Virus record (IMG/VR): IMGVR_UViG_3300010883_000085
Location: 1 to 43,624 of that record
Source of the DNA: a virus
DNA length: 43,624 nt
Strand: one strand, 5' to 3'
The notes under the pieces are model-generated. The model searched no databases. It was not told the DNA's origin and saw only the letters and a program-made list of their open reading frames with translations. Of this stretch, positions 18,696 through 42,714 are shown piece by piece (position 1 is the stretch's first letter; each line of letters starts with the position of its first letter). A program made the translations under genes and the position numbers.

Positions 18696-19496
18696 TTAGT
18701 TACCTATCCCCGCAACGAAAGGATCGTTCCAGGGCTCTCCCATAAGGTTTCCGCTGGTAGAGGAAGTTCCCCTACCCGTTATTACATGTGAGGGCTTATC
18801 CCCATCAGAATCAATAGCATCCTGTAGTAGGGCACTTGCCATCGCATAGTACTGAATACCAGATTCTCTCATTCCCAGCTGATGAAATCCCATAGAGCTA
18901 GCAAAGCAGATAAGAATATCATCCTTTCCATCAAAGGCAGAATAAGTACTCGCCGTAGGAGTAGCCATATCTAAGGGCCATGACCAATATCCTATTTCCA
19001 GAAAATACTTCTTATTAGGTATCTTGTACAAATACAGTTGTTCATTTTCCGCTGTAAATGCACTAGGATACCCCTGTCTCGCTAAGCTACTATTGGCAGT
19101 CGGGATAAGTCTATGGAATTGCCGTCTCCCCATGTAAGAAAGCATATACGATCTATCATAGGGGACGGCAGCTCCAAAACTAACCCTGACGGATTCCATA
19201 GCCCTGAGGCCCCCACCTTCGTAGGTTATAGCCTCAGCTTCGTGACCCGTTATCCCAGACGCAGAGCCTGGTTTCTGGTTATATACCTTGTAATCCGTAG
19301 TAGAGGAGGTGAGAGGATCTATGGTGACAGAAACAGTTTTATACATTTCTTGAAAGTTGTGCATTCTGGCAAGCCTAACCTGACTAAGGTTAAGCCATCT
19401 CAGTTTCTGAGTGTCAGTGACATCTGTTCTGTCACCTAGATTCTTCTCTATCTCTTCTATGAGTTTCTTGGTAGTTAAACCACCATCATAGGCCAT
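18696..19496 (-). CDS. Head-tail adaptor / tail tubular protein A-like
   Basis: The 266-residue product begins with a helical segment (TTKKLIEEIEKNLGDRTDVTDTQKLRWLNLSQVRLAR) of the kind that begins podovirus adaptor proteins docking on the portal. A strand-rich middle and a helical C-terminal segment (FASSMGFHQLGMRESGIQYYAMASALLQDAI) follow. The name rests on this pattern and on the gene order capsid, decoration, adaptor, fibres, nozzle. The start ATG at 19496 has a strong AAGGAGGG site 5 nt upstream. Confidence 0.65.
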   Translation of the reverse strand: MAYDGGLTTKKLIEEIEKNLGDRTDVTDTQKLRWLNLSQVRLARMHNFQEMYKTVSVTIDPLTSSTTDYKVYNQKPGSASGITGHEAEAITYEGGGLRAMESVRVSFGAAVPYDRSYMLSYMGRRQFHRLIPTANSSLARQGYPSAFTAENEQLYLYKIPNKKYFLEIGYWSWPLDMATPTASTYSAFDGKDDILICFASSMGFHQLGMRESGIQYYAMASALLQDAIDSDGDKPSHVITGRGTSSTSGNLMGEPWNDPFVAGIGN

Positions 19497-26442: not shown

Positions 26443-27119
26443 TACCTGAAGTACCTGTTTCCACTACCAAATAGGATATCGGTAAGCATTTGTGATTGAT
26501 CCTGCGCGTAGCCGGGAGCTTGTCCAGATCCTATCCCAGGTTGCATACCTGTGGGAGGCATCCAACTACCACCCCCTTGCATAGGCTGAGATTGAGCACC
26601 TAGTCCGGTCATAGGAGGAATATTTGCCTGGGCCTCTTTTAACTGACCTGCTAACTCAGGACTTATGCCAAGAGCTTTTCCGAAACTATCTTCGGCACTT
26701 TGAACAGCCCTGGCATATCCCGCAAGGGCACCTGCTATCCCGTCCTCTTCCTCATCCTCATCAAGAGGGAGATTTAGGGCAGGGAAGTTAGAAGGATTTG
26801 AACTATTGGCGGCCCATCCTCCTGAAGTCTCCGGTGAGCCCCCGCCAGGATATGAATTATACATCTGAATGTTAGCGAGATCTTGCAGCATCATGGGAGT
26901 AATCTGATTACCCGAAACAGTGCTTCCCACAGGACCACCTGATCCGCTTATATCGGGAGCATTGGCCCCTTGACCAGACGTAACTCCTTTTTGTCCTTGC
27001 TGTCCCCCAGTAGCGCCACCTAAGGCCTTGCCCAGGGCACTGCCACCTAAGGCCTTACTGGCTCCGGCGACAGCACCGCCCGCGCCTCCTAACGCACTTA
27101 GTATTGCTCCCCAAGCCAT
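26442..27119 (-). CDS. Gly-rich late protein, unknown
   Basis: The 225-residue product is highly Gly/Ala/Ser/Gln/Pro-rich. It has a small hydrophobic N-terminus (AILSALGGAGGAVAGASKALGG), a disordered middle, one acidic helix (DEDEEEDGIAG) and a helix at about 130-170. It has no known domain. Position as second gene of the late operon, before small terminase, suggests a head or internal component. The Gly/Ala N-terminus could insert in membranes. Confidence 0.55.
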   Translation of the reverse strand: MAWGAILSALGGAGGAVAGASKALGGSALGKALGGATGGQQGQKGVTSGQGANAPDISGSGGPVGSTVSGNQITPMMLQDLANIQMYNSYPGGGSPETSGGWAANSSNPSNFPALNLPLDEDEEEDGIAGALAGYARAVQSAEDSFGKALGISPELAGQLKEAQANIPPMTGLGAQSQPMQGGGSWMPPTGMQPGIGSGQAPGYAQDQSQMLTDILFGSGNRYFR

Positions 27120-27617: not shown

Positions 27618-27646
27618 CGTTACTAATCCGTTCTCTAGTAACGTTC
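27615..27646. repeat. Perfect 11 bp inverted repeat
   Basis: GAACGTTACTA (27615-27625) and TAGTAACGTTC (27636-27646) are exact complements with a 10 nt spacer. The arm overlaps the end of motif copy c. It can act as an operator for a dimeric protein or as an RNA hairpin. Confidence 0.75.
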
Positions 27647-27682
27647 GGTAAAATCTAGTCCATTTGAGACATGGGTTAGAAA

Positions 27683-27707
27683 GGGCAGGGGGGTGGGGGA
27701 GGGGGGG
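27683..27707 (+). other. G-quadruplex-forming tract
   Basis: The plus strand has four G runs of 3, 6, 5 and 7 bases with connecting loops of 2, 1 and 1 bases. This fits the standard G-quadruplex rule, and the short loops predict high stability. It lies in the non-coding divide between the two transcription directions, so it can influence replication or leftward transcription, in which the C-rich strand is the coding-sense strand. Confidence 0.75.
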
Positions 27708-27715
27708 TGCGGCGG

Positions 27716-27733
27716 TAGTTAGGTACCTAACTA
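27716..27733. promoter_or_regulatory. 18 bp perfect palindrome (operator-like)
   Basis: TAGTTAGGTACCTAACTA is its own reverse complement over all 18 bases, with no spacer. Perfect palindromes of this length in a non-coding divide are usually binding sites for a homodimeric DNA-binding protein. It sits 8 nt from the G tract and 6 nt before the 30 bp repeats. Confidence 0.65.
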
Positions 27734-27913: not shown

Positions 27914-28318
27914 TTAAGCGTTATCAAGAACCTCCCGAAGTATATCGGCATGCGCATGATTCCCTTCCGCCTCTGCCTTTTGAATTTCTCTTTCAAGTAC
28001 CGTCTCCCGTGCGGAGCGCTTCTCTGCACGTTCGTACAGTGTGACAAAATCAAAAGTCTGATCATCTTCGGGCCACTCTCCGTCACGCTTAAATTCAGGA
28101 CGGAGTACGCTATTCTGAAGTTTGACCCTAAGACTCTGCGATTGGGCACACAGTGTGCTTGCGATTAGCTCAGGTGTCATCGCTCCAAAATCAATTTTCA
28201 GATCGTGATAGGTTACAGTGTCGGTTGAACCCTTGTCCGCCTTAATCTTGAAAGTACCAATTGAGAGAATCATGTGTTTTATGTCCTTTTGTGTGGGGCG
28301 CTGTATTGCGTCCGACAT
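27914..28318 (-). CDS. Leftward gene in the control region, unknown
   Basis: The 134-residue protein is soluble, with a strand-rich first half (MILSIGTFKIKADKGS, VTYHDLKIDFGAM) and a charged helical second half (YERAEKRSARETVLEREIQKAEAE). No DNA-binding motif is visible. Codon use is more balanced than in the ATA/AGA-rich neighbours, which suggests a different history. ATG at 28318 follows a GATAAT element by only 5 nt, so its mRNA may have almost no leader. The gene stands alone, facing away from the right arm and on the same strand as the late operon. Confidence 0.65.
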   Translation of the reverse strand: MSDAIQRPTQKDIKHMILSIGTFKIKADKGSTDTVTYHDLKIDFGAMTPELIASTLCAQSQSLRVKLQNSVLRPEFKRDGEWPEDDQTFDFVTLYERAEKRSARETVLEREIQKAEAEGNHAHADILREVLDNA

Positions 28319-28323
28319 CACCT

Positions 28324-28351
28324 ATTATCCACATTAAAAAGAGTCCGTCAA
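28324..28351 (-). promoter_or_regulatory. Leftward sigma70-type promoter
   Basis: On the minus strand TTGACG (28351-28346) is followed after 16 nt by GATAAT (28329-28324), five of six matches each. The expected start site lies close to 28317, at the ATG of the downstream gene (28318), so the message may be leaderless, as is known for lambda cI from PRM. An AGAGT/ACTCT inverted pair surrounds the -35 element. Confidence 0.55.
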
Positions 28352-28386
28352 GATACTCTGACAAAATAAAAATCTTTTTTTGTCTG

Positions 28387-28445
28387 CAAAGTATGTGCCA
28401 AAGTGTGAGCCTATGCAAAGTGCGTGCCCTTGCAAAGTGTGCGCC
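28387..28445. repeat. Four 13 bp iteron-like direct repeats
   Basis: CAAAGTATGTGCC, CAAAGTGTGAGCC, CAAAGTGCGTGCC and CAAAGTGTGCGCC begin at 28387, 28399, 28416 and 28433. The consensus is CAAAGTrygyGCC, and the last three copies are spaced by 17. They do not fit any reading frame that I believe, and are probably binding sites of a replication initiator or regulator. Confidence 0.7.
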
Positions 28446-28456
28446 AACTCGCAGAG

Positions 28457-28492
28457 TCCCCGAGGGTATCCCCGTGGGAATCCCCGTGGGGA
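28457..28492. repeat. Three tandem 12 bp palindromic repeats
   Basis: Three contiguous units TCCCCG(A/T)GGG(T/A/G)A follow the iterons. Each contains the near-palindrome CCCCGTGGGG, exact in the third copy. Such phased units can bind a protein on successive faces of the helix. Confidence 0.65.
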
Positions 28493-28501
28493 TGGCTCGC
28501 G

Positions 28502-28646
28502 CTCTATATGATAGCGCATAGTATTTAGTTCCAGTAAGACAAATGAAAGCTAAAAGCTAGCAGCTCCTAGGAATCTTCACTCTATGTGGTAACGCATAGT
28601 CTTTTAATACCAGTGGAGGAAGCAAAAGCTAAAAGCTAGTAGTTCT
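28502..28646. repeat. Diverged 66 bp direct duplication
   Basis: Copies at 28502-28567 and 28580-28646 share CTCTAT, CGCATAGT, TTTA, CCAGT and AAAGCTAAAAGCTAG in the same order. Many differences between them are A/G or C/T transitions. The second copy folds into a 7 bp stem with a GTAA tetraloop at its left end (28582-28599), and the first has the same stem with one A-C mismatch. Both keep an AGCT-AAA-AGCT mini-palindrome. They could be a duplicated small RNA or a duplicated protein-binding element. Confidence 0.55.
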
Positions 28647-28666
28647 CCCCCTCGGGTTCATGCAAT

Positions 28667-28682
28667 CATGCAGGCCTGCATG
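28667..28682. repeat. 16 bp perfect palindrome
   Basis: CATGCAGGCCTGCATG is fully self-complementary and lies next to the AT-rich stretch of the putative origin. Confidence 0.6.
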
Positions 28683-28810
28683 GGGTATGGGTATGAGAGT
28701 GCATTATATTGATTTATTATATACTAGCTAATATCACCTTGGGCGTTATGATAGAAAAAAAAATATATCAATAAAGATAAGAGGTACTACCCTACCATGT
28801 AGAAGAGAGA

Positions 28811-28878
28811 ATACATCATGGATGATGGGGTTACACCCGGCTGGCACGCATGCGTGCGTGCGTGCATGAATGATGTAT
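28811..28878. repeat. Long inverted repeat with internal palindrome
   Basis: ATACATCAT (28811-28819) pairs with ATGATGTAT (28870-28878). Inside lies a perfect 14 bp palindrome GCACGCATGCGTGC (28844-28857) running into TGCG tandem units. It precedes the rightward promoter by 14 nt, and could be a cruciform or the end of an upstream transcript, although no T tract follows. Confidence 0.6.
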
Positions 28879-28892
28879 GCCTCTAATAAAGG

Positions 28893-28921
28893 TTGCATCT
28901 AACCTCAAGGTGTGGTATAAT
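28893..28921 (+). promoter_or_regulatory. Rightward sigma70 promoter P1
   Basis: TTGCAT (28893-28898), a 17 nt spacer and a perfect TATAAT (28916-28921) with an upstream TGG extended -10. It drives the right arm from its first gene. The leader carries a GTTAGC/GCTAAC hairpin (28929-28951) directly before motif copy d. Confidence 0.8.
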
Positions 28922-28952
28922 GATTGATGTTAGCGGAGAGCTTTTGCTAACC

Positions 28953-28965
28953 TTCAATAATTGAA
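28953..28965 (+). promoter_or_regulatory. Oriented 13 bp motif, copy d
   Basis: Exact TTCAATAATTGAA on the plus strand, right after a 6 bp leader hairpin and 10 nt before the AAAAGGA ribosome site of the first right-arm gene. Confidence 0.6.
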
Positions 28966-28991
28966 AACCTCTAAAAGGACACAATACTAAC

Positions 28992-29306
28992 ATGGCACAT
29001 TACGAACACCTTGCCAAGGAGATTCCTAATAATTCTTTAACCCGTGGATGTGTGGATTATATTAATAAGAAGATGAAAGATTCTTCCTCGAAGTATAGGT
29101 TGAGGATTCGCTACCGTGTACCCAAGGATGGACAATATGGTATTGGTGGGCACGTAGATAAAGCAAACTCCACTGCCTTTTCACTATATCTGGTTGAGAC
29201 TTCAGCGAGTATAAAGGCCACGGCGGCGGCAAAAGAACGACTTTTGAATAGATTCCGAGAAGAAGATGCTAACACGAACATAGAATGGCTGAGGAGCAGT
29301 GCATAA
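28992..29306 (+). CDS. First early gene, unknown
   Basis: The 104-residue basic protein has an N-terminal helix, a strand-rich middle (KYRLRIRYRVPKDGQYGIGG) and a charged C-terminal helix (AKERLLNRFREEDANTN). No motif is recognised. AAAAGGA lies 13 nt before ATG. As the first gene behind the strongest promoter it is likely to be made early. It overlaps the next small gene by one base (TAATG). Confidence 0.65.
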   Translation: MAHYEHLAKEIPNNSLTRGCVDYINKKMKDSSSKYRLRIRYRVPKDGQYGIGGHVDKANSTAFSLYLVETSASIKATAAAKERLLNRFREEDANTNIEWLRSSA

Positions 29307-29443
29307 TGAAACCTCTAAGAGGCGCTAAAGTACGATGCAAAGTCTGCGGTTTTCGCATCCGTGGAACCAAGCACGAAGAGGGTGACCATCACAAGAATGG
29401 TCGCCAAACTAAGAAACCCACCAAGATAAGGAGGAACAAGTAA
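29306..29443 (+). CDS. 45-residue Cys/His-rich basic miniprotein
   Basis: ATG at 29306 overlaps the previous stop and the frame ends at 29443, two codons after the AAGGAGG ribosome site of the next gene. The product (MKPLRGAKVRCKVCGFRIRG then TKHEEGDHHKN) has a CxxC at residues 11-14 and three His at 23, 28 and 29, enough for one zinc site, and a Lys/Arg-rich tail. It is likely to bind nucleic acid. Spacing and overlaps support its reality even though it is very short. Confidence 0.65.
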   Translation: MKPLRGAKVRCKVCGFRIRGTKHEEGDHHKNGRQTKKPTKIRRNK

Positions 29444-29444
29444 A

Positions 29445-29918
29445 ATGACCAATCCTAAAGACTCAGAGTGGACAGAGGGAGAATCTACCTTGCCGAAGGG
29501 TTCTGAAGGGTTTTCAAGAGTGGCTGGTCGATACACTCCAGACATGACTCAGGGTGAGAAGGGATATCTTGACCTAACTAGTCCTACCTATGACGAGAAG
29601 ATCGTTGAGATAGAACTAGACAACCGGGAGGGCCTCCCTGCTCTGTGGGCGAAAATCCCCCTGAGGCAGATCATACACTGGAAGGCCGCTTGTAAGCTGG
29701 AACTCAAAGGGATGAAGCATAGTAGAGGATCAGTATTCCCCTACGTATTCGGTGCCTTTGAGATCCCTCTGGACCTTCGGAGAAAGAAGGTCATGAAACA
29801 GGAGATGGTGAACATGCTGCAGTTTATTGTAGATGAGTCTCTCTCCCCTGGATCTCGTGGAGATAGAACTTTAATTCTTGACGGGTTCAGTACTAGACTA
29901 GAGAAAGGTAACAAATGA
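29445..29918 (+). CDS. Early protein, unknown
   Basis: The 157-residue product has a polar N-terminal 50 residues followed by an ordered region (EKIVEIELDNREGLPALWAKI, HSRGSVFPYVFGAFEIPLDLR) and a charged C-terminus. A consensus AAGGAGG is 6 nt upstream of the ATG. I recognise no family. Its operon position between two CxxC miniproteins suggests host takeover or nucleic acid metabolism. Confidence 0.6.
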   Translation: MTNPKDSEWTEGESTLPKGSEGFSRVAGRYTPDMTQGEKGYLDLTSPTYDEKIVEIELDNREGLPALWAKIPLRQIIHWKAACKLELKGMKHSRGSVFPYVFGAFEIPLDLRRKKVMKQEMVNMLQFIVDESLSPGSRGDRTLILDGFSTRLEKGNK

Positions 29919-31765: not shown

Positions 31766-31957
31766 ATGGACACACCTGTCCGTATATTCATAGTTTCAAT
31801 GGCAATAGTATTTGGCGTCTTCTTCTGGACGAACACGGCAACTTGCGTGAATTGTCCTGGGATGGCTTGCCAGACCAATGCAGAGTGCGGGACTTGTTCC
31901 TGTGCTAAGATGGAAGGACAACCCTGGGGCAGCTGCTTCTGGGTGACCGCTAAATGA
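31766..31957 (+). CDS. Cys-rich exported or membrane-anchored miniprotein
   Basis: The 63-residue product has a positively flanked hydrophobic segment at residues 7-22 (IFIVSMAIVFGVFFW), then seven Cys at 27, 30, 35, 41, 44, 46 and 57 in about 30 residues. The order C-x2-C-x4-C-x5-C-x2-C-x-C-x10-C, with Gly and Pro between, resembles disulphide-knotted peptides more than a zinc ribbon, and the leading hydrophobic segment would carry it across the inner membrane, where disulphides form. It stands first behind the perfect-consensus promoter P3 with AAGGAGGG. Zinc binding is the alternative. I recognise no named family. Confidence 0.6.
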   Translation: MDTPVRIFIVSMAIVFGVFFWTNTATCVNCPGMACQTNAECGTCSCAKMEGQPWGSCFWVTAK

Positions 31958-34536: not shown

Positions 34537-35379
34537 ATGACTAGCCCCATAGTATCTAACAAAGTACCCCCGAGTATGAATGCTGCATCTGCAGACATGA
34601 CCAGTAAGAAGAGAGTCATGCTGATAGGCCCCGCAGGCACGGGGAAGACGCTAGCTGAGTGTACCTTGCCAGGGAGGAAGTTCATCTATGCCTTTGACTC
34701 CACGGTGAGGGAGACTATCATAGGAGAGAAGGACATTGACTTCGTAGAGTTCCTCCCCTCTCATGACGAGGCAGATCTCGCTGTTCAGACTCTGAAGAAG
34801 GGGGTAAGAGATCCCTCTCGCGGTCGGGCAGAGCCTAAGCAGTATGTGGCATGGGAAGAGGATTGGCACGCGAGGTGTGCGGCTAACTTCTTTGCTGATT
34901 ACGACTGGGTTTGCTTCGACTCCATGACCAACTTCTCTGACCTCATCATGTCTAGGGTTATGTTCAAGAACGGACGCTATGGCAAGCAGCCCGAGCAGGC
35001 TGACTATGGTGCAGAGATGACCGTCATGAGAAATGTCATATCCGACCTGACCAATATAGGCACTAATATCCTCGTCACAGCCCATGTGGAGTTGACTAAG
35101 GATGAGTACACTGGAAGAGTCCACGGTCAGATCATGTTCACTGGAAAGAACAGGATCAGAATTCCAACCAAGTTCACAGACATCTTCGCTACCGCAGTAG
35201 AGGAGGACGACAAGATCGGGGCTAGGTTCCTAGTCAGGACAGTACCTGATAGATTGAACCCCGTAGTCCGAGTCTCCAAATCTCTCAAAGCTCAAGGATT
35301 GACGGATGTTGAAGATGTAACAGTGGATCTTAGTCAGCCTTTGCCTGGTCAAGGACTAGGTAAATTTTTTGCCGACTAA
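34537..35379 (+). CDS. Sak4-like RecA-fold ATPase (phage recombinase)
   Basis: The 280-residue ATPase has Walker A at 31-38 (GPAGTGKT) and Walker B at about 122-128 (YDWVCFDS), then a sensor-like segment (NILVTAHVELTK). Size and sequence pattern fit the small Sak4/AAA_24 group that anneals single strands. Known members work with a single-strand binding protein, and here a DUF669-like gene follows. A GGAG lies 11 nt upstream of ATG, right after the nuclease stop. I infer that nuclease, ATPase and the SSB-like protein form one recombination unit. Confidence 0.8.
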   Translation: MTSPIVSNKVPPSMNAASADMTSKKRVMLIGPAGTGKTLAECTLPGRKFIYAFDSTVRETIIGEKDIDFVEFLPSHDEADLAVQTLKKGVRDPSRGRAEPKQYVAWEEDWHARCAANFFADYDWVCFDSMTNFSDLIMSRVMFKNGRYGKQPEQADYGAEMTVMRNVISDLTNIGTNILVTAHVELTKDEYTGRVHGQIMFTGKNRIRIPTKFTDIFATAVEEDDKIGARFLVRTVPDRLNPVVRVSKSLKAQGLTDVEDVTVDLSQPLPGQGLGKFFAD

Positions 35380-36181: not shown

Positions 36182-36404
36182 TATTAGACTAGAACGGCTT
36201 CTCAAATCTGTTGACACTATGTCATCTCAGGAGCTTAGGGAGGCTATAGGAGAGGTGCGACGGGATAGAGCACAATCTAAGAAGGTTCAGAGAACATCTA
36301 CTAAACAAGGTCGTCAGCGTAAAGTTGACAAGCTAAGTGCCTTGTTGAATAGTATGTCTCCAGAAGAACGTAGAAAGGTATTAGGGGCGAAGAAAAATGG
36401 CTGA
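36174..36404 (+). CDS. Small basic helical protein
   Basis: The 76-residue product is rich in Arg, Lys, Glu and Ser (LREAIGEVRRDRAQSKKVQR, NSMSPEERRKVLG) and is nearly all helix. It overlaps genes on both sides, so it belongs to the ParB-methyltransferase transcript. It could bind DNA as a partner of that protein, but no motif is diagnostic. Confidence 0.6.
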   Translation: MDDIRLERLLKSVDTMSSQELREAIGEVRRDRAQSKKVQRTSTKQGRQRKVDKLSALLNSMSPEERRKVLGAKKNG

Positions 36405-37755
36405 TGATATTTTGGTAGAGATGATAAACGTAGGTGACCGGTATCGGCAGAACTATGGAGACATAGAAGAGCTAAAGGAATCTATTGAGAAGCACGGAGT
36501 GATCCAACCCATTACTATCTGTATCTCATTAGATACCCCCTCTAGCTATGACCTAGTGGCCGGTGGCCGTAGGCTAGAAGCAACCCGCATGGCGGGGTTG
36601 AAAACTATACCGGCAGTAGTTAGAGAGATCGCAGGGGAAGAGGATCTGAGAGAGATTGAACTGGTAGAGAATATCCAGCGAAAAGATCTTGACTGGCCCG
36701 AGCGATGTCTCCTAGAGGAGCGGATCGTCGAGTTGAAGGGGAGCCAGTCTGCTGCTGCTGATACCCTAGACCACTCCGTAGGCCTGACAAACCGCCACGT
36801 GCAGATGGCGCAGGCTATGAAAATGATCCCCGAGCTATCTCAATGTAAGAACATAGCCGAGGCTGAACGACAGCTGAAGAAGTTTGAAGAGTCAGTCTTA
36901 GTAGAGGCACTCAAGAGAAAAGCAGATGATTCTCTCGATCTCCAGCATGATGTCACTATCACCGGCGATGCCCGGAAGGATGCTCGGCTGGCTAAGAGGT
37001 TGGAAGATATCAGCTACTTCTACAACATTGGCGATGCTTTAGAGGGGATGCGGAATATCCCAGAAGGTAGACAGTTCCACTTTGCCGAGGTAGATCCCCC
37101 TTATGGAATTGATCTGGCAGACCAGAAAAGAACTTCTTCTACTACAAATATCAATAGAACTGATGGCTATACCGAAGTTAGTGAGGATACCTACCATGAC
37201 TGGACTGTATCCATAGCCAAGGAAGTGTACCGACACCTAGAACATGGCGCATACTGTGTCTGGTGGTTCGCTCCCACAATGGCCGAGGAAGTTCGGACTG
37301 CTCTTATAGAGGCAGAGTTCGAAGTTGATGGTATCCCGGCTATTTGGGTAAAGCCGAACGGTCAAACACAGCAACCTCATCTTCACCTGGCACGTTGCTA
37401 CGAACCTTTTTATATCGCCAGGAAGGGAAAGGCTACACTGAAGAAAGCTGGTAGAGGAAATGTATTCGCGTTTAATCCTGTGTCTCCTAATAAAAAGGTA
37501 CATCCTACGGAGCGTCCTATCGAGCTGATCCAGGAAATACTTGATACCTTCTCTTACCCAGGGTATAAAGTTCTCTGTCCTTTTCTCGGTTCTGGTAAGA
37601 CTCTAATTAGCGCCCTGTCCAGGGATATGCACGCCTATGGATGGGATCTTAACGAAGAATATAAGGACCAATTCCTAAGAATCTGTGTAGATTACTTCAT
37701 AGAAAACGAGGAAGATGGTGACCTGAAGGGAGAAGAAGGGGATGTACAATACTAA
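36397..37755 (+). CDS. ParB-like domain fused to a DNA methyltransferase
   Basis: The 452-residue fusion has residues 1-115 as a ParB N-terminal-type domain (DIEELKESIEKHGVIQPITI, LVAGGRRLEATRMAG, ELVENIQRKDLDWPERC). Residues about 205-430 are an N4-cytosine/N6-adenine methyltransferase with motif IV DPPYGI at about 231 before motif I FLGSGKT at about 395, so it is beta-class. No restriction enzyme is adjacent, so it is a solitary methyltransferase, perhaps protecting phage DNA from host restriction or marking it for packaging or replication. ParB-methyltransferase fusions are known in phages and mobile elements. Confidence 0.85.
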   Translation: MADDILVEMINVGDRYRQNYGDIEELKESIEKHGVIQPITICISLDTPSSYDLVAGGRRLEATRMAGLKTIPAVVREIAGEEDLREIELVENIQRKDLDWPERCLLEERIVELKGSQSAAADTLDHSVGLTNRHVQMAQAMKMIPELSQCKNIAEAERQLKKFEESVLVEALKRKADDSLDLQHDVTITGDARKDARLAKRLEDISYFYNIGDALEGMRNIPEGRQFHFAEVDPPYGIDLADQKRTSSTTNINRTDGYTEVSEDTYHDWTVSIAKEVYRHLEHGAYCVWWFAPTMAEEVRTALIEAEFEVDGIPAIWVKPNGQTQQPHLHLARCYEPFYIARKGKATLKKAGRGNVFAFNPVSPNKKVHPTERPIELIQEILDTFSYPGYKVLCPFLGSGKTLISALSRDMHAYGWDLNEEYKDQFLRICVDYFIENEEDGDLKGEEGDVQY

Positions 37756-39358
37756 TGCCTATACCGAGGGAGATCCTAACTCGCTAATAGCCTTCGTGGC
37801 AGAGGCTCCGGCTAGGGTGGAGGAAGTAAGAAATCGCCCCCTAGTCGGGGAGAGCGGGATAGTATGGGACACCCTACTGCAAGCCGCAGGAATCTCTCGA
37901 TCAGAAGCATTCACCATAAACTGTGTAAAGCATCGCATATCTAGCCCAGATAAGTATATGACAAAATCTGGTCTTACTACGGAAGGTATGGCGGTTCGAG
38001 ATGATGTTAAGGAAAGGTTAAAGAATTGTAAGGCTAATGTAATAGTGGCCCTAGGGAAACTTTCCACTTGTATCCTAACAGGCGAGACAGAGATAACAAA
38101 ATACAGGGGGTCCATCCTACCCAGCACCCTCCTTCCAGGTAAGAAAGTAATACCTACCTACCACCCCGCATATACCCTACTAAGGCGAGGCCCTGGAAAC
38201 TATCTATTCCGATACGATATAGTTGCAGATCTAAAGCAAGCTAAGAGGCATAAAGAATTCCCTGAGATTCCTGCTCCTACGCTGGAAGCCATTCTAGATC
38301 CTACCTTTAATCAGGTTATTGATTTTATAGATATGGTGAATAGAGATCCTAAGATAAACATCTTCGGGTATGATGTAGAGTGCTATAATAACCAGATCTC
38401 TTGTCTCGCTATAGCACCTCATAAGGATCTATCTTTCTGCGTGCCCTTCGTGAATAGATGGAACGAGGCTCAAGAAACACAGATATGGCTTGCCCTCTGT
38501 AAACTAATGAAGAACACCGAAGTAACCAAGGTGATGCACAACTTTCTATTCGACGTCTCGTACACATGGCATCAATCTAAGATCCTCACCCGAGGGCCTA
38601 TTGAGTGTACTATGACCGCTTATAGAACCATGTACCCAGATATGCGCTCAGGCCTAGACCATCTAGTATCTATCTACACCGAGCATAGATACTATAAAGA
38701 TGATAGAAAGCTATGGAAGACTCCCGCCAGAGATCCTATGGCATTTTGGCTTTATAACTGCAGGGACTCAGCATATACTATAGAAGTCTGGGAGCATGTG
38801 AAGAAGGAACTCGAGGCTGATGAAGATTATAGCAAGATGTACAAAGAGGACATGGAATTAACTGACCCTCTTCTATGGATGATGACAGCGGGTATCCCGA
38901 TAGATGTAGAGCAGCTGAACATAATGAAAGCTGATGTAATTAAGGAACTCGCGGAGACGGTAGAGGAGTTGCATTCAACTGCTAGGGAAGAGTTTAATCC
39001 TGGCTCTGCCGTCCAGGTTATTAAGTATTTCTATGACACCCTAAAATTGAAGCCTTACCTAAATAGGGGCAAACGAACCTGTGATGATAAGGCTCTTTCA
39101 AGAATTGCCCGGAGAGATAATCTCCCCGAAGCAAGAATACTGCAGAAGTGGCGACACCTGGATAAACTGCGTAGCACCTATTTGGAATTGGAGTATGACC
39201 CGGATAAGAAACTAAGATGTTTCTATCAACTGAAGGGTACAAAAAGTGCCCGGCTATCATCAACCAAGACTCTTAAAGGAACTGGTCTGAACATGCAAAA
39301 TTTAGATCCGGCCTTTAAGAGATTTCTATACTGTGAAGGAGAAGAGGATGGGAGCTAG
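37742..39358 (+). CDS. DNA polymerase part 1: UDG-like, 3'-5' exonuclease and thumb
   Basis: The 538-residue product holds three parts. Residues about 15-165 resemble uracil-DNA glycosylase family 4/5 (VAEAPARVEEVRNRPLVGESG near 19-39, TYHPAYTLLR at 139-148), though the usual N-terminal iron-sulphur Cys pair is missing. Residues about 208-345 are a DnaQ-type exonuclease with D211 and E213 (YDVEC), N267 and D271 (HNFLFD) and Y338/D342 (YNCRD). The rest is family A thumb ending with RLSS and NMQNLDPAFKRF. It stops before motif A, so it cannot polymerise alone. It overlaps the methyltransferase stop by 14 nt. Confidence 0.85.
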   Translation: MYNTNAYTEGDPNSLIAFVAEAPARVEEVRNRPLVGESGIVWDTLLQAAGISRSEAFTINCVKHRISSPDKYMTKSGLTTEGMAVRDDVKERLKNCKANVIVALGKLSTCILTGETEITKYRGSILPSTLLPGKKVIPTYHPAYTLLRRGPGNYLFRYDIVADLKQAKRHKEFPEIPAPTLEAILDPTFNQVIDFIDMVNRDPKINIFGYDVECYNNQISCLAIAPHKDLSFCVPFVNRWNEAQETQIWLALCKLMKNTEVTKVMHNFLFDVSYTWHQSKILTRGPIECTMTAYRTMYPDMRSGLDHLVSIYTEHRYYKDDRKLWKTPARDPMAFWLYNCRDSAYTIEVWEHVKKELEADEDYSKMYKEDMELTDPLLWMMTAGIPIDVEQLNIMKADVIKELAETVEELHSTAREEFNPGSAVQVIKYFYDTLKLKPYLNRGKRTCDDKALSRIARRDNLPEARILQKWRHLDKLRSTYLELEYDPDKKLRCFYQLKGTKSARLSSTKTLKGTGLNMQNLDPAFKRFLYCEGEEDGS

Positions 39359-39704
39359 ACTACCGCTAGGACGTAAGCAAGAGATTTTCGCAGAGCATTT
39401 AAGTACACTAATATCCCTGATGTTCGCGTCGGGATATAGGGTTCGTTACGGGGAAGTGGAGAGATCCAAAGCTGAAGCATTCCGTAAAGGATTCCCCAAC
39501 AGCAATCATACCCGACGTCTTGCTGCTGATCTGCATCTATTCAGAGATGGAAAGTATTTAATGCAGACAGAAGATCACGAAACCTTTGGGATCATCTGGG
39601 AATCCTTCTCTCGGAAGATCGACGGAGTTTGGGTTCAGTTCTGCTGGGGTGGTCGCTTCCGAGACGGCAATCACTATTCAATCCAACATGGGAAGGTGAA
39701 GTAA
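39348..39704 (+). CDS. M15-family endolysin (L-alanyl-D-glutamate peptidase-like)
   Basis: The 118-residue product has the M15 metallopeptidase pattern: His54 (NSNHTRRLAADLHLF) and Asp61, with His109 (DGNHYS) as third zinc ligand and the usual CWGG before it. Such enzymes cut the cell-wall stem peptide. ATG at 39348 has AAGGAG 6 nt upstream; GTG 39333 is also in frame but lies inside that site. It overlaps polymerase part 1 by 11 nt and its stop is directly followed by the ATG of part 2. It has no signal peptide, so a holin must release it. Confidence 0.85.
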   Translation: MGARLPLGRKQEIFAEHLSTLISLMFASGYRVRYGEVERSKAEAFRKGFPNSNHTRRLAADLHLFRDGKYLMQTEDHETFGIIWESFSRKIDGVWVQFCWGGRFRDGNHYSIQHGKVK

Positions 39705-40595
39705 ATGAAAAAGGCTTGCTTAGTCGAGCTAGACCTTCGCCAAGCTGAGTGGATCGTCACTGCCTTTGCCGCACAAGAACCTAAGATGATGGAGATTTAC
39801 TGGTCGGGGCAGGATCCACATCTCTCCACTGGTACCCTCATATCAGGGGCTCCTCCAGAGGTGGTACGAGAAGACAGTAAGCTCGTAGGTCACTTAACTG
39901 ATCCTGTGGAGATAGCTAAGAAAAGGAGTAAATTCAAAGTTGAGACGATGGCTAGGTTCTACTTTCCTCGCTCTATGGCTATTCGACAGGCGGGGAAAAA
40001 AAGTAACCACGGATTTAATTATAGGATGGGCTATAAAAGATTTGCTTTAGAGAACGAAATTAAAGAATCAGAATCTAAAACAATCCACGAGAAATACCAC
40101 AAGGCATATCCTAATCTCTACTCATGGTATCAATCAATAGAAGAGGAGATGAGAACTACTAGAACTCTCAACACTTGCTTCGGGGATAAGCGTAGATTTC
40201 TAGGAGCATATACCACCGAGATGGTAAACGAAGCTATCTCATGGATACCCCAGACTACCGTGGCACGGGTCACTAAGTATGGTATGTATGCAGTATATAA
40301 TGACTCTAGGCTAAAAGATAAAATGGATCTACGGGCGAACGTCCACGATTCTATCCTAGTCAGGGCAACCTACTCTTCTATCGCAGAATTAATAGACTTG
40401 CTCAGACTTTCAAAATCTCACATGGGGGAACATCTAGAATATCATCATAGAGAATTCACTCTTCGCGTAGACATTAAGGTGGGGGTAAACTGGGGCTTTA
40501 TGGAAGACATCCCTGAAAAAATAACTGACGAGGGGGTGGTCTCCGAGGCCCTGGAGAAGAGCGTTGTCAAAAGCGAAGAAGCGAAAACTGGATGA
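39705..40595 (+). CDS. DNA polymerase part 2: family A palm and fingers
   Basis: The 296-residue product begins MKKACLVELDLRQAEW, where D10 and E15 form motif A. Motif B is at 94-106 (RQAGKKSNHGFNY) and motif C at 213-216 (VHDS). These are the three catalytic motifs of the family A palm and fingers, so the two parts together (538 plus 296 residues) make one complete UDG-exonuclease-polymerase. The cut falls between the RLSS/NLQN segment and motif A. ATG 39705 has its own AAGG site. Both halves look intact, so assembly in trans is likely. Confidence 0.85.
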   Translation: MKKACLVELDLRQAEWIVTAFAAQEPKMMEIYWSGQDPHLSTGTLISGAPPEVVREDSKLVGHLTDPVEIAKKRSKFKVETMARFYFPRSMAIRQAGKKSNHGFNYRMGYKRFALENEIKESESKTIHEKYHKAYPNLYSWYQSIEEEMRTTRTLNTCFGDKRRFLGAYTTEMVNEAISWIPQTTVARVTKYGMYAVYNDSRLKDKMDLRANVHDSILVRATYSSIAELIDLLRLSKSHMGEHLEYHHREFTLRVDIKVGVNWGFMEDIPEKITDEGVVSEALEKSVVKSEEAKTG

Positions 40596-41769
40596 TCTCC
40601 TAGTATCGTGGCTAGAGTATACTAAGAATACCGAGAGTCCTACTCCGTATCATCTCTGGTCATGTATATCCACTATAGCCGCTACAATGGAACGCAGAGT
40701 ATACCTCGACTGGGGGCATACCAAGATATACTCTAATATGTACATCTGTCTCATCGGACCTTCAGGAGGACGAAAGGGGGAACCTATATCTATTGCTCGG
40801 GATTTCCTCGGCCATGTCAGAGTGAATATAGTATCCCAATCTATTATTCGGGAGGCGCTAATTAGGAGGATGAAGCAGGTAGCCACCACCTACCCCACAG
40901 CAGACAGGACCCTAGAAAATCAGAGTGCTATGGCAGTAGTATCCCCCGAGCTTGCGGTATTCCTCGGGGAGAATAACATAAAACTTCTGGCTGATCTAAC
41001 AGACTGGTATGACTCTCATCCTAAGTGGGTATATGAGACAAAGGGATCGGGCACGGATGAAATCATAGGGGTGTGTTTTAACATGCTAGGAGCTATGGCA
41101 CCTGACTGGATACCCCTAGTCATACCTCACGGAGCTATCGGTGGTGGGTTCACCTCTCGTATTATATTTGTAGTTGAGCATAAAAAGGGAAAGACTATTA
41201 CCAACCCCAACTTGCATGGAGTGGACAGGAGCCTAGGAGCAGATATAAAACATGACCTAGAACTCGTCAAGATGCTATCGGGATCATTTGAGTTTGATCC
41301 TAAAGCACTAAAGCTATACGAGGAATGGTACGCAAATGAAGATGATAAGATAGATTTGGGTATGCCCCCTATCAAAGATCCACGTTTCTCCGGCTATGTC
41401 TCTCGGAGGGCCACTCATATAAAGAAGATAGCGATGGTTGTATCAGTTGCTAGGTCCTCTACATTGATCATCACAGAGAATGACCTGCTCAGAGCTAAGG
41501 GCCTGATGGAAACCGCAGAGGTTAATATGTCTGATGTCTTCGGGAAGGTAGGCAGGACAATCTATACTGCCCAGACCCAGGAGGTAATGGATATAATCAG
41601 GAGTAGGGGGGAGATGAAGAGGTCAGAACTTATGCGTATAATGTATAGAGATGTGGACGACTCTATGATGCGGGGGATAGAAGCAACTCTCACAGCTATG
41701 AGGGTTATATCCTCTACCCCCATCACCGATGGGAGACTTGATTATATGTTCAAGTGGATCGGGAATTAG
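40564..41769 (+). CDS. DUF3987-like P-loop ATPase, possible replicative helicase
   Basis: The 401-residue product has an N-terminal helical segment, then a P-loop variant GPSGGRKG at 65-72 in which the usual Ser/Thr is Gly, and later acidic residues (SPELAVFLGENN, ETKGSGTDEIIG). The pattern fits DUF3987 proteins, thought to be replicative ATPases or helicases of mobile elements. It overlaps polymerase part 2 by 32 nt and starts with TTG at 40564, with GGAG 7 nt upstream. A C-terminal winged-helix-like segment (MDIIRSRGEMKRSELMRIM) may bind DNA. Confidence 0.65.
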   Translation: MSKAKKRKLDDLLVSWLEYTKNTESPTPYHLWSCISTIAATMERRVYLDWGHTKIYSNMYICLIGPSGGRKGEPISIARDFLGHVRVNIVSQSIIREALIRRMKQVATTYPTADRTLENQSAMAVVSPELAVFLGENNIKLLADLTDWYDSHPKWVYETKGSGTDEIIGVCFNMLGAMAPDWIPLVIPHGAIGGGFTSRIIFVVEHKKGKTITNPNLHGVDRSLGADIKHDLELVKMLSGSFEFDPKALKLYEEWYANEDDKIDLGMPPIKDPRFSGYVSRRATHIKKIAMVVSVARSSTLIITENDLLRAKGLMETAEVNMSDVFGKVGRTIYTAQTQEVMDIIRSRGEMKRSELMRIMYRDVDDSMMRGIEATLTAMRVISSTPITDGRLDYMFKWIGN

Positions 41770-41794: not shown

Positions 41795-41870
41795 AGGCCC
41801 GTAGCTCAGGGGTTAGAGCATCAGTCTTATAAGCTGAAGGTCCTGGGTTCAATTCCCAGCGGGCCTACCA
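41795..41870 (+). tRNA. tRNA-Ile (anticodon UAU)
   Basis: The 76-base cloverleaf is complete: acceptor AGGCCCG/CGGGCCT, D stem GCTC/GAGC, anticodon stem TCAGT/GCTGA with loop CTTATAA (anticodon TAT), T stem CTGGG/CCCAG, discriminator A and encoded CCA. UAU reads AUA, a frequent Ile codon in the genes here. Most bacteria read AUA with a lysidine-modified CAU anticodon, so this tRNA would make the phage independent of TilS for that codon. Its last 22 bases overlap the end of the opposite-strand GNAT gene. Confidence 0.93.
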
Positions 41871-42418: not shown

Positions 42419-42714
42419 TCTGCCTCCCTTATTGCACGTAGAATAGTCTCCGTGTGCGCTCGTTGCTCCATCCTTAGCTCTCTTATATCCTGCTTTACTT
42501 CCACTAAAACTGTCTTATTACGCCTAACCTCTACTACAACCCCCTCGACTTTAATTTCCACAGTTCTTACATCCCTCTCATGCGCTGCCTCAGGATGTTT
42601 AGGCTCTCCGCTATGACTATATGTTATCATGAATAAAGATCCTACAGCAGTAGATATTAATGCCACAGCACCAAGAAATAGGCTAAAGTTAGTTCCGTTG
42701 CTATTGCGGGTCAC
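42415..42714 (-). CDS. Membrane protein with coiled-coil tail, lysis cassette
   Basis: The 99-residue product has one N-terminal membrane segment (residues 11-31, LFLGAVALISTAVGSLFMI) and a soluble domain with coiled-coil repeats (VKQDIRELRMEQRAHTETIL). This topology suits an i-spanin or a pinholin partner. It overlaps the upstream holin-like gene by 14 nt and the GNAT gene by ATGA. Function from context only. Confidence 0.5.
   Translation of the reverse strand: MTRNSNGTNFSLFLGAVALISTAVGSLFMITYSHSGEPKHPEAAHERDVRTVEIKVEGVVVEVRRNKTVLVEVKQDIRELRMEQRAHTETILRAIREAD

Follow-up and report, generated by a model that had tools for sequence, protein, structure and literature searches.

SaPI origins of replication carry iterons around an AT-rich region. 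In SaPIs (Rep) and SCCmec elements (Cch and Cch2), an AAA+ helicase encoded by the mobile element is proposed to bind repeats of an intergenic origin and to load itself there. One study describes SCCmec Cch as MCM-like, proposes self-loading for Cch2, and reports that Cch2 binds repeats of a putative origin between genes; at that site, binding needs direct, not inverted, repeats (PMC7581432). Archaeal origins, by one account, have an AT-rich DNA unwinding element (DUE) flanked by recognition boxes (PMC5333045). The iteron origins of lambda and P22 join short direct repeats to AT-rich DNA, and lambda ori lies inside gene O. A gene plan similar to that of the genome studied here is found in PaMx41 and PaP2 (Fredfastierviridae, Jamesmcgillvirus), which also encode a DUF3987 protein.

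We analyzed a viral genome of 43,624 bases, IMGVR_UViG_3300010883_000085 (the window, meaning this whole stretch of DNA), in which the initial annotation had proposed a theta-type origin with an initiator-binding array at 28319-28991. Our main reading, to which we give a probability of about 0.68, is that this region is a theta-type phage replication origin at which the DUF3987 protein acts as a self-loading helicase. Comparative evidence makes origin function the most likely role of the region; the part assigned to DUF3987, which draws on a structural model, is more tentative. A literature search returned no description of this origin, and the records of PaMx41, PaP2, Tiera, Kuura, and other phages with this replication module annotate no origin.

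The locus resembles the SaPI and SCCmec systems in the predicted fold of its helicase. However, their origins adjoin the helicase gene, whereas the conserved core in the window (28.7 kb) lies about 12 kb from the DUF3987 gene (40.6 kb), and Cch carries DUF927 where the window protein carries DUF3987. With archaeal origins (ORB repeats, Orc1/Cdc6, and MCM) the locus shares a flanked AT-rich candidate DUE and a helicase of predicted MCM fold; unlike archaeal origins, the phage arm sequences are mutually unrelated from phage to phage, and Orc1/Cdc6 gave no Pfam hit among the window proteins scanned (a subset of ORFs). Lambda and P22 share the short direct repeats and AT-rich DNA, but the window region is non-coding and neither phage has a strong spaced inverted pair (scores 13.0 and 12.0 in the scan described below); no O-like initiator was recognized among the window proteins scanned, a set that covered part of the small ORFs. 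PaMx41 and PaP2 have a pair of score 17.0 in an early-arm gap, but their DUF3987 proteins are only about 25% identical to that of the window, and their arms are 60 bp apart and unrelated in sequence.

The window ends in an exact direct repeat of 123 bases, and for this reason the record is probably a circularly closed assembly. Its leftward arm holds packaging and structure genes, with the small and large terminase subunit genes 2-3 kb to the left of 28319-28991. Its rightward arm encodes an exonuclease, a Sak4-like protein, a ParB-methyltransferase fusion, pieces of a family A polymerase, and the DUF3987 protein. The region sits where the two arms diverge; no gene was recognized in 28322-28991, which is overlapped by short ORFs only. 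The closest relative of the window is G001 (IMGVR_UViG_3300032820_000027; 42,278 bases), a collinear but permuted genome. A phage nucleotide search with window positions 28000-29500 and 20000-43624 gave no match. Within the rightward arm, an N6/N4 DNA methylase is fused to a ParB N-terminal domain (36397-37755), and the family A DNA polymerase is split over 37742-40595 into a UDG/exonuclease/polymerase start, a 123-codon ORF, and a polymerase end; for Vibrio phage VS-ABTNL-3 the polymerase is likewise recorded in pieces. A tRNA-Ile with anticodon TAT (41795-41870) lies at this arm's right end; a tRNA is the sole Rfam match in the window. The features to which we refer below are as follows.

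27914-28321, minus strand: leftward 135-codon ORF (134-residue product) adjoining the region
28324-28351, minus strand: sigma70-like promoter TTGACG-16-GATAAT, facing left toward the 134-residue gene, from a promoter scan (10/12 matches)
28387-28445, plus strand: four exact iterons CAAAGTNYGNGCC, starting at 28387, 28399, 28416, and 28433, from the sequence
28457-28492, no strand: three tandem 12-bp palindrome-like units TCCCCGnGGGnA, starting at 28457, 28469, and 28481, from the sequence
28502-28566, plus strand: copy 1 of a diverged duplication of about 66 bp, by alignment
28580-28645, plus strand: copy 2 of the same duplication, by alignment
28654-28886, no strand: conserved candidate origin core, the sole part of the region that blastn aligned with G001 (68%)
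28657-28682, plus strand: GCATGC-rich left arm TTCATGCAATCATGCAGGCCTGCATG, containing a 16-bp palindrome (28667-28682); putative initiator/helicase array
28683-28844, no strand: AT-rich spacer, candidate DUE, by nearest-neighbor stability
28811-28824 and 28865-28878: inverted repeat of the initial annotation, from the sequence
28845-28870, minus strand: GCATGC-rich right arm, which repeats the left arm in inverted orientation, from the sequence
28893-28921, plus strand: rightward early promoter TTGCAT-17-TATAAT, read by eye and not listed by the promoter scan
28953-28965, no strand: 13-bp palindrome TTCAATAATTGAA, a putative dispersed regulatory element, here within the 5' leader of the rightward arm's first gene
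40564-41769, plus strand: DUF3987 gene, whose product is predicted to be an AAA+ ATPase of MCM-like fold with a winged-helix-like domain at its C-terminus; our proposed initiator, which would load itself as a helicase

All the repeat classes that had been described in 28319-28991 are present at or near their given positions, and their significance is unequal. Allowing at most one mismatch, the iteron occurs six times in the window, a count reached in 0/100 shuffles. The number of 12-bp units is unremarkable by itself (equaled in 30/100 shuffles); their period-12 repetition, at 21/24 positions, is the best in the window, against a maximum of 18 over 50 shuffles. CCCCGCGGGG units occur in non-coding DNA of relatives too. 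The copies of the duplication agree in just 52/71 aligned columns, which is why we call it diverged. Both iterons and duplication are absent from G001, where other repeats (13 bp and 4 x 25 bp) take their place. The proposal of a theta-type origin is the best-supported reading of the region, but its main support comes from the core at 28654-28886 and not from the iterons; what the two genomes conserve is this core of arm, spacer, and arm.

The left palindrome block and a GCGTGC block are the two arms of a single inverted pair, which had been overlooked. The arms match at 20 positions over 26 nt, and an equal or better score arose in 5/2000 shuffles. The left-arm sequence TCATGCAATCATGCAGGCCTGC is the same in the window and G001 (22/22 identical), as is GCGTGCGTGCGTGCATGA of the right arm, and G001 is the one other contig in the viral collection that contains the left-arm 18-mer. 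In G001 this pair (26 nt, 85%) ranks first among all spaced inverted pairs. Genome-wide in the window alone, the core arms, which are imperfect, do not stand out: the top pair of an ungapped scan was 28132-28158/28432-28458, with a score at null level, and a gapped inverted-repeat scan ranked coding DNA at 19276-19482 first and did not single out the core. The core arms rank first and second in a scan for hexamer density, to which we give little weight because the hexamers were chosen once the arms had been seen. The 16-bp palindrome is exact, but it is not significant by itself, since the window has two perfect palindromes of this length and 8/50 shuffles hold two or more. Folded as RNA, 28780-28991 scores better than shuffles (z -3.67), which we read as a probable by-product of the DNA inverted repeats.

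By nearest-neighbor stability, no 60-bp or 100-bp stretch of the 43.6-kb genome is less stable than those starting at 28714 and 28703, respectively, both in the spacer between the arms. Such a local stability minimum is what we looked for in a DUE, and the flanking repeat arrays are present in the window, in G001, and in the third relative, L041. In G001, a single 60-bp place is less stable than the spacer, and it belongs to the non-coding region that holds the spacer; at 100 bp, the spacer is exceeded in instability by nine places and the whole non-coding region by one. In L041 the spacer is the least stable 60 bp of the contig, and in the genome G013 two 100-bp places are less stable than the spacer. 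Across 20 strong inverted-pair elements from the survey below, a set that excludes G034 (its pair resembles dispersed palindromes) and G046 (its pair wraps the contig end), 17 spacers lie at or above the 99th percentile of instability, compared with 8.3% of random segments of equal length. The other three are those of G029 (30th percentile) and of G028 and G051 (about 97th).

The third relative was found in a genome-contig scan with the DUF3987 pair, which detected a 54% DUF3987 homolog in a metagenome-assembled genome (MAG) whose contigs also encode TerL and a homolog of the helix-turn-helix (HTH) protein at 31954. Contigs L031, L041, and L042, binned in MAG PL23a_bin.76, look like parts of a phage related to the window. 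At the equivalent place upstream of the HTH gene, L041 has arms at 4387-4418/4661-4692 (32 nt, 81%) with an AT tract between them, and its left arm is adjoined by GCATGGGGTATGG, as in the window. A blastn search with the core against more distant terminase relatives gave nothing convincing. The 131-codon ORF on the left in L041 was considered as a homolog of the 134-residue protein, a match that is unsupported (hhalign probability, 0.5%).

That ORF bears on the first alternative, namely that the region is only a divergent promoter/operator region in which the arms are symmetric operators and ordinary promoter DNA makes up the AT-rich spacer. The gene arms do diverge here, and outward-facing sigma70-like promoters bound the region in both the window and G001; the window pair had been missed in the initial annotation. 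In a relative, TTGACC-16-TATTAT (L007:6683-6710) takes the equivalent place of the leftward promoter, and TTGACA-17-TATGAT takes that of the rightward one. The cumulative G-C minimum at 27635 also fits, as gene direction alone could produce it. However, both promoters are outside the arms, with about 300 bp between the arms and the left promoter, and the left ORF of L041 runs in the same direction as the genes that follow it, into the core, so a divergent promoter does not explain the layout there. Moreover, genome-wide instability typically peaks in the spacer. A separate feature is the 13-bp palindrome TTCAATnATTGAA, which with at most one mismatch occurs eight times in the window (6732, 14896, 25937, 27605, 28953, 31197, 35382, and 41775) against 0.18 expected, and also eight times in G001, mostly near gene starts. 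It resembles an operator or promoter element that is dispersed over the genome.

We then asked how often spaced inverted pairs recur in other phages. For each genome, the scan takes the ungapped inverted pair that scores highest among those whose arms are separated by 40-600 bp, and its null is dinucleotide shuffles. The threshold of 17 was fixed after the shuffle scores had been seen; 0/232 shuffled genomes reached it, the highest scoring 16.5. In the discovery set, G009 (20.0), G013 (25.5), a Desulfofustis phage (21.0), PaMx41 (17.0), and L041 (17.0) reached the threshold, and G001 (16.0), Tiera (15.5), the window (14.5), and EBPR podovirus 3 (13.0) fell below it. The pairs of Tiera and PaMx41 are at 43613-44085 and 42480-42583, respectively. 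The scan was kept unchanged after this set and then run on new genomes. All six distinct new phages scored at least 17: ctMlz233 (30.5), ctLwi270 (38.0), Mel-JY34 (20.5), VS-ABTNL-3 (19.5, with low-complexity arms), vir526 (29.0), and Kuura (18.5). PaP2 (17.0) duplicates PaMx41 and was not counted. A scan of viral contigs gave 255 relatives, of which 80 were kept; 34 contigs of 38-51 kb were chosen and 32 were fetched, and at least 17 was reached in 16/26 (with G020 taken minus its last 409 bases) and in 6/6 of these. Altogether, 28/38 further genomes selected by DUF3987 have a strong pair, and 22/38 score at least 20. Some of the ten without one may be fragments, but G038 and G043 are probably complete because they have end repeats. 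The archaeal-virus record L057 (vir526, host given as Methanomicrobiales) has DUF3987 and, at 385-992, long mirrored arms of TGCAT repeats.

Among nine control phages without a DUF3987 hit, six scored below 17 (LUZ24, 15.0; lambda, 13.0; T1, 12.0; phiKMV, 14.5; T7, 12.5; P22, 12.0) and three at or above it (HK97, 18.5; phiC31, 19.5; BPP-1, 22.0), one of the nine reaching 20. The spaced pair is hence enriched in DUF3987 phages and not exclusive to them, and its co-occurrence with DUF3987 is one-sided, as every genome was picked by DUF3987. The BPP-1 pair (26607-26710) is strong, lies beside the terminase genes, and has an AT-rich spacer (0.65 versus 0.35 for the genome); it may be the origin of that phage too. 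Other points also weigh against the main reading: arm sequences differ strongly among phages, 12 kb separate DUF3987 from the core, and PaMx41, Kuura, and others carry the pair within the early arm, away from the divergence.

The neighborhood of these elements returns to the promoter alternative. By a crude ORF call, 18 of the 22 strong elements in viral contigs are at least 75% non-coding, in genomes with a non-coding share of 6-22%, and the same caller places 10 between divergent, 9 between co-directional, and 2 between convergent neighbors, with 1 left unassigned. Because neighbor orientations are mixed and the spans so largely non-coding, a pure divergent-promoter reading is insufficient, and we consider it improbable.

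A second alternative is that the region is a packaging start (cos or pac). Such sites lie near the terminase genes in many phages, and both terminase genes are 2-3 kb to the left here. Closer to them, however, is a separate G-rich non-coding block (27650-27708) that is 81% conserved in G001 over 59 bp, which is a better packaging candidate than 28319-28991; within 27650-27732, this block is followed by a perfect 16-bp palindrome at 27717. A terminase site also has no need of the least stable DNA. Finally, the inverted pair of Kuura (35206-35344) is far from its direct terminal repeats, given as 606 bp by PhageTerm in one report (PMC9959647). We regard a packaging function as very unlikely.

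Turning to the protein that would act at this origin, the initial annotation had suggested the 134-residue product, the HTH protein at 31954, and the ParB fusion as candidates. None gained particular support. The 134-residue protein is only 24% identical in G001, and a search for its relatives found none; of 17 records searched for the HTH protein, one (the third relative's MAG) has it and none of the 16 virus records does, with no match in phage records and G001 the only match among viral contigs. We propose the DUF3987 ATPase, which had not been named, as a better candidate. It is 89% identical in G001, and Pfam DUF3987 was found in 13/13 aligned members. A 2018 paper lists DUF3987 as a predicted helicase family (PMC5862659). 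A sequence profile compared with PDB chains gave doubtful matches only (PPR-type designed proteins, a weak P-loop, and a weak winged helix). An AlphaFold2 model built from 39 sequences from the window and fetched loci reached a pLDDT of 93.3 and a pTM of 0.90, against a pLDDT of 36.5 with 3 sequences only. Among the matches listed for this model, MCM or MCM-containing complex (CMG) entries made up 50/50 in Foldseek and 50/50 in VIA. The best structural match listed was the ATPase part of SsoMCM (Z 21.1, rmsd 3.4, 280 residues, 10% identity). The C-terminal part matches less tightly: some of the entries span residues 1-401, with an rmsd of 8-10. Residues 1-324 of the 401 align with SsoMCM 275-602, and the MCM N-terminal domain is absent; we therefore label the protein, on its predicted fold, MCM-like and do not file it under MCM. 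The motif GGGFTSR, invariant in the alignment, resembles the arginine-finger SRF motif of MCM, and the C-terminal helices and strands form what we take to be a winged helix.

It is also conceivable that another protein recognizes the origin (the HTH protein, the protein at 28992, or host DnaA) and that DUF3987 is a fork helicase only. DUF3987 is well conserved and the arms are highly variable, a pattern that could arise if specificity were set by an adaptor that evolves faster. Yet the HTH protein is rare in the records searched, and paired arms occur in phages with no detected homolog of it. We judge this alternative somewhat unlikely.

In the mechanism that we favor, with DUF3987 as initiator, this MCM-like ring helicase would bind the arm arrays, either directly or via a small phage protein, melt the AT-rich spacer, and load as two oppositely facing rings. 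Replication would start here and proceed bidirectionally, with the phage family A polymerase working at both forks, and each gene arm would be expressed from the outward promoter on its side. The repeats to the left of the core (iterons, 12-bp units, and duplication), which vary between relatives, would be accessory control sites.

A broader proposal, which we put forward tentatively and as a conjecture, concerns a large, mostly uncultured group of phages (those examined are mostly 38-51 kb). These may carry out archaeal-style replication in bacteria, with DUF3987 as both initiator and fork helicase, self-loading as two opposed rings on mirrored arrays that flank the most meltable DNA of the genome, and with array sequence and helicase specificity diverging together. 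If so, the origins of many uncultured phages could be located from sequence alone by their mirrored arms and least stable DNA. Bacterial viruses would gain an MCM-like initiator helicase with paired loading sites, and these phages would offer a simple system for how opposed ring helicases load.
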